DNA of 38,250 nucleotides from Candidatus Thalassarchaeum sp. (GTDB lineage Archaea > Thermoplasmatota > Poseidoniia > Poseidoniales > Thalassarchaeaceae): positions 1-38,250 of the forward strand of contig JASMMD010000012.1 in assembly GCA_030748335.1 (NCBI GenBank), given 5' to 3'. Below the pieces are notes generated by a model, which did no database searches, was not told the DNA's origin, and was given only the letters and a program-made list of their open reading frames with translations. Both the position numbers and the translations under genes were made by a program. Shown here one piece after another: positions 27,772 through 31,752 of this stretch. How positions within the stretch are numbered: position 1 is the stretch's first letter; every line of letters starts with the position of its first letter.

Positions 27772-27975
27772 TCAGAACGTCGGCCCTATGGGCCGAAAGG
27801 GCGGAATCGCGATGATATTCGGAATTGGGGCGGGGATCGGATCCTCGGGGTCCTCCTCCGTTAGGCTCAGGGCGTTCGTCGTTGCTACGTCTCCTTCCTC
27901 GGAACCGGAGACTAGGGCTTGCGTGCCGCTCATGAAAATCAGGGCGGCGATGTGTAGGTCCAGGTTTCGGTCCAT
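27772..27975 (-). CDS. Truncated paralogue of the dockerin-repeat secreted protein
   Basis: 67 residues from ATG 27975. The first 24 residues, with MDRNLDLHIAALIF and then SGTQALVSG, nearly repeat the signal peptide of the dockerin protein starting at 30061 (MDRTVDLTIAALIF and then AGTAGLVSG). Similarity continues to a G-x-V-x-TT stretch, after which this copy runs into an acidic and proline-rich end without any calcium loop. The upstream sequences also match, including the position of an ATAAG element. It is best read as a duplicate that lost its dockerin domains. It may still be expressed and secreted as a short peptide. Confidence 0.5.
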   Translation of the reverse strand: MDRNLDLHIAALIFMSGTQALVSGSEEGDVATTNALSLTEEDPEDPIPAPIPNIIAIPPFRPIGPTF

Positions 27976-27983
27976 GGAGCGAC

Positions 27984-28005
27984 TATCATCCACATCTGGA
28001 TGATA
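27984..28005. promoter_or_regulatory. 8-bp palindrome over the promoter of the truncated dockerin paralogue
   Basis: TATCATCC-acatct-GGATGATA overlaps the presumed TATA region (minus strand CTTATC) about 27 bases before ATG 27975. The palindrome is absent from the otherwise similar promoter upstream of 30061. It could be an operator or a chance repeat. Confidence 0.35.
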
Positions 28006-28077: not shown

Positions 28078-28164
28078 ATGGACTGGCCCGCCGACCTCTC
28101 GGATGGCCGAGTAGGGAAGATTGAATTCACTTCTGCCAGTCCCTTCGAGATTCACCACATTCTG
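28078..28164 (+). pseudogene. N-terminal remnant of a dienelactone-hydrolase-like gene
   Basis: ATG 28078, with CGGAG upstream, opens a GC-rich frame beginning MDWPADLSDGRVGKIEF and then SASPFEIHHIL. The last segment matches the N-terminal part of the intact hydrolase on the opposite strand (S-R-SPFEIHHIL) at 10 of 11 residues, and 21 of 27 bases match across the SPFEIHHIL codons. Base composition changes abruptly to AT-rich right after it, and the frame then runs about 29 unrelated codons to a stop at 28249-28251. It is the 5' stub of a native hydrolase gene whose C-terminal stub lies at 29211-29390. Confidence 0.65.
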
Positions 28165-28210
28165 TGCAAGATATGCATATTTACGCCAGTTATTTTGCAG
28201 TCAAATTATC

Positions 28211-29113
28211 CTAGGAAAGTTGCTCTAAAAAGAAATCTCTAGCCCTATCTAAGGAATCAGCACGAGCAGACGGGTTGCCTTCCACATGAGCTCCTCTGTT
28301 CCGCAAGATTCGGATAATCCATCTACGCTGCCAGCGCTCATTCAGAGGTAATCGAAGACCAAGGAATAATTCTCCAGACATGTATCCATTCTTGTCTATT
28401 CTAGCAGTTCGCTTCCTTAAGCGAACCGCCTTTGGAAGAAGTGTCAGTTCTTTCTCACTGTCGAAAGAATGGTGCGCATCAGGATATGCATGTAAGGTAG
28501 CATTTGGAAGTTGAGGAAGTAGTTCTTCAACTAGATGCACAGGAGTCCAATTGTCAGCATCTCCATGAAGAATCAAAATTGGTGAATCCGACCAATTTTG
28601 GATTTCTGGTCGAATATGAGCTGCTGGATAGAATGGCAAATGAGCATCGAATGCGGACCCTAGAATATCGATAATAGGAGACCATGCCGAGTACAGAGCA
28701 ACAGTTCCACCGAGGCTCCAACCTGCAATCCCAATCTTGTTGATCCTAGGGTCTTGAGCCAATACAGAACGCGTGCTAAAAGCATCAACAAGCATCATTG
28801 CATGAGTTACCGAAAGTTGGTCGTCAACTGTTGAATCAATCCCCCTTGCGGCGAATGAATTTACCTTACAAACCGCCAGCCCAGCATTGATCCAACCATC
28901 GATATGGTCTTGATGATGAGTTGCCCAACCTTTGCTTCCATGATGGGCAATTACACATCCAAACGGCCCATCGCCTTCCGGAAAGAATAGTTCAGCCTCA
29001 ATTGTAGTTTGAGGTGTTTTTTCCAAACCAGTCAGTATGTGATGAATCTCAAATGGAGAGCGAGATTGAACTTGTAAGCGCTCCATCATGAGCACACGAA
29101 AGGCTCGCTTCAT
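28211..29113 (-). CDS. Dienelactone-hydrolase-family alpha/beta hydrolase (AT-rich, probably acquired)
   Basis: 300 residues from ATG 29113; later in-frame ATG codons are possible starts. The triad is readable: Ser133 in GIAGWSLGGTVAL, an Asp in ILHGDADNWTP (187 best fits the spacing) and His215 in PDAHHSFD. The oxyanion segment is VIAHHGSKGW. No signal peptide is present, so it probably acts in the cytoplasm. The family cleaves dienelactones and other small esters; the substrate here is unknown. Base composition and codon choice are clearly more AT-rich than the neighbours. Stubs of a GC-rich homologue flank it on the opposite strand. A 6-bp palindrome, TTTCAG-gg-CTGAAA, lies 15 bases upstream at 29128-29141. 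Confidence 0.85.
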   Translation of the reverse strand: MKRAFRVLMMERLQVQSRSPFEIHHILTGLEKTPQTTIEAELFFPEGDGPFGCVIAHHGSKGWATHHQDHIDGWINAGLAVCKVNSFAARGIDSTVDDQLSVTHAMMLVDAFSTRSVLAQDPRINKIGIAGWSLGGTVALYSAWSPIIDILGSAFDAHLPFYPAAHIRPEIQNWSDSPILILHGDADNWTPVHLVEELLPQLPNATLHAYPDAHHSFDSEKELTLLPKAVRLRKRTARIDKNGYMSGELFLGLRLPLNERWQRRWIIRILRNRGAHVEGNPSARADSLDRARDFFLEQLS

Positions 29114-29210
29114 TTGAAATGCGGTTATTTCAGGGCTGAAAAATCAACGACCGTCGCCACCAGATCTATCTCTAGAACCTCTTCGTAACTTACGACTTTT
29201 CCTTCCATGA

Positions 29211-29390
29211 CTTCTTCCTCTCCGAATCGACATGCAGGGGGATATGACGTCTGAAGTAATGCCCGGTGTTATGATTCCATTAAACGAGCCTGAAGATCGT
29301 TTGGCGGCCTTCGCAGCCGTCCCCAACCTAGGAGTCCACAAGAGGGGGTCAGCGGACGGCGCGAAGGCACGCGCTTGGTTGCAGCACTGA
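29211..29390 (+). pseudogene. C-terminal remnant of a dienelactone-hydrolase-like gene
   Basis: In the plus-strand frame ending at TGA 29388-29390, 42 residues starting RIDMQGDMTSEV align without gaps to residues 238-279 of the intact hydrolase (RIDKNGYMSGEL onward). By hand 16 of 42 are identical, including a shared IPLNE/LPLNE block and an N-x-G-x-H-x-x-G pattern. The ends (ADGAKARAWL versus ADSLDRARDFFL) also correspond. A stop codon at 29208-29210 and loss of the matching upstream part show it is not a working gene, although an ATG at 29232 could express 52 residues. The rest of 29114-29431 holds nothing else I can support. Confidence 0.65.
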
Positions 29391-29431
29391 ATTCTTCCAG
29401 AGAAGTCTCAGCGTATAGTGGCGCTAGTTGT

Positions 29432-30936: not shown

Positions 30937-31752
30937 TCATTTCGGGCGCCGCTTCTCTTTCACCTTCATCGACTCGCTGAGAGAGACATTAGACATTTCA
31001 CCCGAGTCGAACCAAAACAGTCCGCAGGAGGGGCATCCATCGAGATCCAGATACTCCTTCTTGTTTGGTATCATCGCTTGTATCGTAGCTACGACCAAGG
31101 CACCAACCAGGTCACCGCCGCCGCCACTGTCGGGCATCACGTAGGTGATTGGGATTCGATTCATTCTCCCTTCGCAACTAGGGCACATCTTTTCTCCGGC
31201 CTTGCATCTACTCAGTTCTCTTTCTATGGCTAATGCCTTCTCTTCCCCGATTTTGTTGAATATTGTCTTGGAGTCGAGCATGGCCCCTCTACATTTTATG
31301 CAATAGAAATACGCAGTGGTTTCCCCAGTTGCAAAAAGGGAGTACCCAAGTGCTAAGGCAGCAGCGCACAGAAGATAAGACAGAACGGTGAAATCTTCGT
31401 TATTTCCCTGAACCATAATTTTCATACTAAAAACAAGGCACACAAGGCCAATCACAAAGGTGACTTGCTTTGCTTCTTGGCTCACTTTATCGTGGCGGTC
31501 GTAGGTGAGTTCAATGGGCCCAACAGGGGCCCCTCTTCCGCAACGGTTCGGGCACAGGAAGACCTCTGCTGAAGCAAATTGGAAGGAGGTCTCTTCTAAG
31601 GCCTCATCTGCTATTTCATCAAATTGTTCCTCTAATTTTTCCTGTTGTTGCTGGGGGATTTTACTTCCTAATCTCATATGCCTATTGCATATTCCCACCG
31701 ACCTGAACTCCAAGGCATTGCAGCCTTCAATAGCACAGTTCCGATTTCCCAC
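30937..31752 (-). CDS. Membrane protein with zinc-ribbon domains
   Basis: 271 residues from GTG 31752. The N-terminus carries a Cys/His cluster (CAIEGCN and CNRHM), then CPNRCG near residue 67. Two hydrophobic segments lie at about 95-135. The C-terminal part has CIKC, then CPSCEGRMNRI and DGCPSCGLFWFDSGEM, the pattern of the zf-TFIIB-like ribbon found in many small bacterial and archaeal proteins. A basic tail follows. The function is not known; a membrane-tethered metal-binding protein is all that can be said. It is more AT-rich than its neighbours, which hints at separate origin. It lies 45 bases after the GT2 gene and 6 before the CDP-alcohol transferase. Confidence 0.7.
   Translation of the reverse strand: MGNRNCAIEGCNALEFRSVGICNRHMRLGSKIPQQQQEKLEEQFDEIADEALEETSFQFASAEVFLCPNRCGRGAPVGPIELTYDRHDKVSQEAKQVTFVIGLVCLVFSMKIMVQGNNEDFTVLSYLLCAAALALGYSLFATGETTAYFYCIKCRGAMLDSKTIFNKIGEEKALAIERELSRCKAGEKMCPSCEGRMNRIPITYVMPDSGGGGDLVGALVVATIQAMIPNKKEYLDLDGCPSCGLFWFDSGEMSNVSLSESMKVKEKRRPK

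Follow-up and report, generated by a model that had tools for sequence, protein, structure and literature searches.

How does an intact hydrolase gene come to lie, in reverse, between two short stretches that resemble the two ends of a gene of its own family? The question is raised by a 38,250-nucleotide stretch of archaeal DNA (hereafter the window), contig C3 of a 1.16 Mb MAG that is about 81% complete and is the only assembly found for its species, a member of the Thalassarchaeaceae in the Poseidoniales (Marine Group II archaea). The first-pass annotation, made from the letters alone, had suggested that a native hydrolase lost its centre and that a foreign homologue took its place in the opposite orientation. 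We compared the window with the congeners G005, G009, G011 and G012, with G002 and G007, and with the sister species G006, searched 60 relatives for homologous proteins, and took a census of the family across 319 genomes of the order.

The homologues in the 60 relatives are of two kinds: type A proteins are 57-96% identical to the product of the window gene and type B proteins about 50%, and the two types, which form separate clades with support of 100/100, are ~48-50% identical to each other. In G005, G009, G011 and G012 an intact, uninterrupted plus-strand type B gene occupies the orthologous site, near the beta-propeller gene; these four same-site genes have 57-65% GC and lie on the strand of the two window stubs. 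The ancestral arrangement is thereby shown to have been an intact plus-strand type B gene between the beta-propeller and dockerin genes. Set against it, the window contains the following:

28078 to 28172, plus strand: N-terminal relic of the native type B gene (codons 1 to about 32), with 76% amino-acid identity across 29 residues to the genes that G009 and G011 have at this site; nucleotide homology to locus L019 stops at 28172.
28167 to 28172, no strand: left junction, a 6-bp microhomology, CAAGAT, common to native B, the window and the donor in a base-by-base comparison.
28167 to 29221, minus strand: about 1,055 bp of donor DNA, in reverse orientation to the gene that it interrupts and 93.6% identical over 1,067 alignment columns to contig C72 of G025 (L027/L128).
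28167 to 28210, minus strand: donor spacer downstream of A and before an aminotransferase gene, g4-native; the same spacer is found in G025 and in the A-less G234.
28211 to 29113, minus strand: complete alpha/beta hydrolase gene of type A (42.8 bits on the Pfam DLH model; dN/dS about 0.12 against G025; TGA at codon 3 in G025).
29144 to 29221, minus strand: end of the donor's upstream membrane-protein-like gene, severed by the right junction, as seen in the alignment to G025 and G234.
29221, no strand: right junction, a 1-bp overlap in a base-by-base comparison.
29221 to 29418 (end approximate), plus strand: C-terminal relic of the native type B gene, 85% identical in amino acids to residues 253-293 of the G009 protein, with a frameshift at about 29343-29348.

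When intact type B proteins from congeners served as queries, they matched the left stub with 68% identity at residues 1-37 (E 5e-10), where the end of the match extends into donor sequence, and the right stub with 85% identity at residues 253-293 (E 2e-24), both E-values applying to the fetched loci only; the two matches are on the plus strand and in gene order. Even the type A protein, distant as it is from B, retrieves the right stub when searched against the whole genome to which the window belongs (E 0.019). Compared with the four intact B genes and with the relic in G006, the right relic carries a 1-nt insertion, while the sequence missing between the relics amounts to ~656 bp (B nucleotides 96-751). 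The rest of the assembly, which is 81% complete, yielded no intact B. The two stubs are parts of one broken gene, as the first-pass annotation had recognized in matching them to the two ends of a hydrolase, but its boundaries have to be redrawn. On the left the B relic ends at 28172 rather than 28164, its final 6 bp being common to the insert; on the right the fragment does encode a hydrolase C-terminus but starts at 29221 and not 29211, because 29144-29221 is donor DNA.

At both joints one sequence gives way directly to the other. Nucleotide homology to native B ends at 28172 and restarts at 29221, donor homology starts and stops exactly where native homology stops and resumes, and nothing intervenes at either join; about 656 bp of B have been exchanged for about 1,055 bp of donor DNA. 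Extended homology between donor and target is absent, the two junctions sharing 6 bp and 1 bp only. No transposase or recombinase, tRNA or target duplication was found at the window site, nor were terminal repeats found in the insert or inverted repeats at the joints, in keeping with the earlier remark that no transposase is visible. The sole cross-type inverted repeat, a 25-nt pair that links the B stub with A (28140-28164 / 29033-29057), represents the shared codons for SPFEIHHIL; it lies near the left joint and does not coincide with the right one.

The base composition follows the same boundaries. With codon usage compared with window genes only, the hydrolase gene at 28211-29113 (46% GC, GC3 0.36) has a codon score of -0.36 versus its pooled neighbors, and the neighboring genes tested show GC3 values of 0.65-0.81 and codon scores of +0.06 to +0.25, with the exception of the gene at 30937-31752. 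Composition shifts at both insert junctions, and the contrast drawn in the first pass between GC-rich stubs and an AT-rich, inverted middle holds when set beside the same-site B genes of the four congeners.

The exceptional gene at 30937-31752 (minus strand; 48% GC, GC3 0.53) is a second AT-rich gene and the other compositional outlier. Its product has a TFIIB-type zinc ribbon near the C-terminus; the gene is matched in two pieces in the sister G006, none was found at the corresponding site in G002 or G007, and it is possibly also foreign. A small ORF at 27772-27993 (minus strand), retained in every congener examined, encodes an N-terminus 64% like that of the dockerin protein over 33 residues and may be a shortened duplicate of the dockerin gene.

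The insert also carries information on its source. In G025, which belongs to another genus (g4) than the window, a 3.4-kb contig carries type A with a membrane-protein-like gene on one side and an aminotransferase gene on the other (names assigned by eye from translations); in G234 (L208), likewise of genus g4, these two neighbors adjoin each other directly and A is absent from the site. The A-free site in G234 indicates that the flanks are g4-native, and G025 itself must therefore have gained A. As the insert holds the last ~78 nt of the membrane-protein-like gene and the 44-nt spacer before the aminotransferase gene, g4's own flanking sequence points to a donor lineage within g4 that already held A, which makes the donor a G025-like archaeon of that genus. 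Horizontal movement of A is likewise indicated by protein identities, because A of the window is 96% identical to that of G025 whereas a 1,284-aa window protein, long and vertically inherited, is only 63% identical to its G025 counterpart. The silent-site divergence (dS) of A between the window and G025 is 0.14. Between the window and G006, four of five vertical genes have a dS of 0.30-0.35 and the fifth (GT2) 0.105; against the other congeners vertical genes give 0.9-1.5. Since 0.14 is lower than the window-G006 value of ~0.33, the capture is probably recent, later than the split from G006.

The captured gene looks functional. Its dN/dS of about 0.12 suggests that it has been maintained as a working gene, whose true start is probably Met9 or Met10 (29089 or 29086) because codon 3 is a TGA in the donor relative. 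It scores well above the cut-off of 21 bits on the Pfam DLH model (PF01738), and no NCBIfam model run against it reaches its own cut-off. Ser133, Asp187 and His215 (window numbering) are invariant across A and B, and the Ser of GWSLGG, likewise invariant in both types, is the likely nucleophile. The predicted fold (pLDDT 85.8) is closest, with modest TM-scores, to feruloyl/cinnamoyl esterases and dienelactone hydrolases. A thus resembles the dienelactone hydrolase family in its Pfam score and in having members of that family among its fold matches, but differs in its likely Ser nucleophile from the classical dienelactone hydrolases, in which the nucleophile is a Cys.

We regard as the best explanation, with a probability of about 0.78, a xenologous gene displacement in situ and in inverted orientation, by microhomology-mediated (double illegitimate) capture of a linear fragment that was kept because A replaces B. 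The first-pass reading, in which a foreign homologue displaced the native hydrolase in reverse, is supported. A linear donor fragment would have been joined at a double-strand break, or a pair of breaks, inside B, presumably in one step of microhomology-mediated end joining, that is, double illegitimate recombination. Its orientation would have been left to chance because no long homology guided the joining. That a fragment should land in its own homologue would be a coincidence unless selection or guidance is assumed. Selection accounts for it best, because a landing that destroys B can survive when A supplies the function; if, as the shared invariant residues would allow, A took over the function of B, the destruction of B would have been costless.

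Other routes to the same locus have to be weighed against this. Homologous exchange is at odds with the reversed orientation, the point that the first-pass annotation had raised against simple homologous replacement, and with the lack of homology at either joint. A transposon, cassette or viral element might have carried A into B, and the occurrence of type A in many gene neighborhoods would be in its favor, but the locus has none of the recombinase, tRNA or terminal repeats of such elements, the fragment ends at arbitrary points of donor genes, 656 bp of the target were lost, and no viral relative of A, hence no viral contig with A, was found in IMG/VR at the sensitivity of the search; we consider this origin extremely improbable. 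With homologous exchange and a mobile element both fitting poorly, end-joining capture of a linear fragment remains. That the two stubs are small functional genes in their own right, with no relation to the hydrolase, is scarcely credible: both contain short ATG-led open frames, but both align to one uninterrupted same-site gene in four congeners, in none of which they form separate working genes, and the right one is frameshifted.

Contamination is rejected, since the insert sits within flanks and stubs that are themselves native. In any MAG it is worth asking whether foreign DNA with type A was spliced into the contig as a chimera of the library or the assembly, yet this is very improbable here: it would need two joins independent of each other, and overlaps of 6 bp and 1 bp are shorter than an assembler works with; the insert is inverted, and beyond it the sequence resumes in the gene that it had left, with the order preserved; the relic has a frameshift of its own; and the assembly yielded no intact B elsewhere. 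A history in several steps is unlikely, though less so. An A fragment could have entered in or beside B, with later deletions trimming B and the ends of the insert, or a direct replacement could have been followed by inversion. The frameshift in the relic implies that time has passed, and deletions at this locus did occur in G006 and G002; against such a history, both donor-native joins are direct with nothing between. An inversion would in addition require breaks exactly at both joints, where there are no inverted repeats, the lone cross-type repeat being a shared protein motif off the right joint, and on these grounds inversion after direct replacement is disfavored.

The one-step capture that we favor has a counterpart in the sister species, in which B was lost differently. 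In G006 a deletion of another kind, bounded by the 4-bp repeat AAGA, removed all of it but a C-terminal relic, an indication that microhomology joining occurs in the genus; G002 likewise retains a C-terminal B relic. The type A gene of G006 itself sits elsewhere (C13) and has a dS of 1.45 from the window A, and the two sister species apparently each lost B and gained A independently. A scan of all fetched loci for extra family fragments found in-place displacement with stubs in the window only. Pieces of type B also occur in other settings. In G011 (contig C42; L129, 334-496) the final 22 residues of type B are encoded a second time, next to a displaced dockerin gene and a CDP-alcohol transferase gene, at a locus that was rearranged in that genome. 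In G032 (contig C24; L154, 400-580) an isolated N-terminal stub of type B, with no A gene beside it, continues into a frame that by eye resembles the end of a type I restriction subunit.

Exchange of the two types is also seen in other genera. In genus g3, beside a tRNA-Pro gene, G034 has B (L172, 988-1869) where L043, L045 (4390-5290), L008 and others have A; the two types have the same orientation there, the flanks of B are 85-96% identical to those of the closest of these A loci, and the exchange is confined almost exactly to the gene. In g7, the genes that flank A in L029 and relatives are found no more than about 2 kb from B. Across the order type A occurs in many gene neighborhoods (loci L027-L084), several of them recurrent and others singletons, and it therefore appears to move as a lone gene, with no vehicle in evidence.

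None of the 319 genomes of the order contains a complete A together with a complete B; the G282 bin, which has overlapping but different A pieces and a B fragment at a contig end, looks mixed. Within genera that have both types, 3.9 co-occurrences would be expected and none was observed (P about 5e-4, or about 0.002 if G282 is counted), in a test that ignores phylogeny within genera and uses genome counts made by eye and genus sizes that are partly approximate. This near mutual exclusion is supportive of interchangeability rather than proof of it. A wider proposal would be that A and B are interchangeable and mutually exclusive versions of one enzyme that displace each other across Marine Group II, even at the same sites, inverted in the window and in normal orientation in the tRNA-Pro slot of g3. 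We hold this to be quite unlikely; if true, the repeated positional coincidence would imply either that end-joining capture is directed to the homologue, by weak homology or by shared fragile sites, or that A and B are incompatible in one cell.

Little is known about the way in which single foreign genes are taken up and fixed in abundant uncultured marine archaea. In most cases a replaced gene cannot be traced, since the joint is lost in homologous exchange; in the window the victim, the donor lineage, both joints and an approximate date can all be read. The case also suggests that functional redundancy can render a disruptive landing harmless. A systematic search for inverted displacements would make it possible to measure what fraction of gene acquisitions stems from end joining as opposed to homologous recombination.

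Xenologous gene displacement in situ is a known process, described in passages of PMC1274311 (citing Omelchenko et al. 2003) and of a report of xenolog shuffling in the Sulfolobales (PMC9425974). As in those passages, a native gene, orthologous to the one at the site in four congeners, has given way, at its own site, to a distant homologue gained by horizontal transfer. The cases that they cite keep operon order; retention of order and orientation, which is usual among them but outside the bare definition, is not seen in the window, where the newcomer is inverted, only the centre was overwritten, and the two ends of the old gene are preserved together with both joints. A limited, non-exhaustive literature search met no earlier inverted, joint-preserving displacement with a donor lineage and a date. 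The marks of a transposon or cassette (recombinase, terminal repeats, target duplication) are all lacking here. A closer mechanistic parallel is offered by the double illegitimate and homology-facilitated illegitimate recombination described for bacterial transformation (PMC4437187), in which linear foreign DNA is likewise integrated with little or no homology and target sequence is lost, although the window shows a natural event in an archaeon with no homologous anchor at either end. In the archaeon Haloferax volcanii, microhomology end joining proceeds without Ku (PMC2700283) at short joint repeats of 3-5 bp, against 6 and 1 bp here and 4 bp in the G006 deletion; there it made deletions in a cut plasmid, whereas here an ectopic fragment was captured. 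The readable joints of the window are in line with such end joining and point to homology-independent capture with microhomology, so that displacement in situ need not mean homologous recombination.
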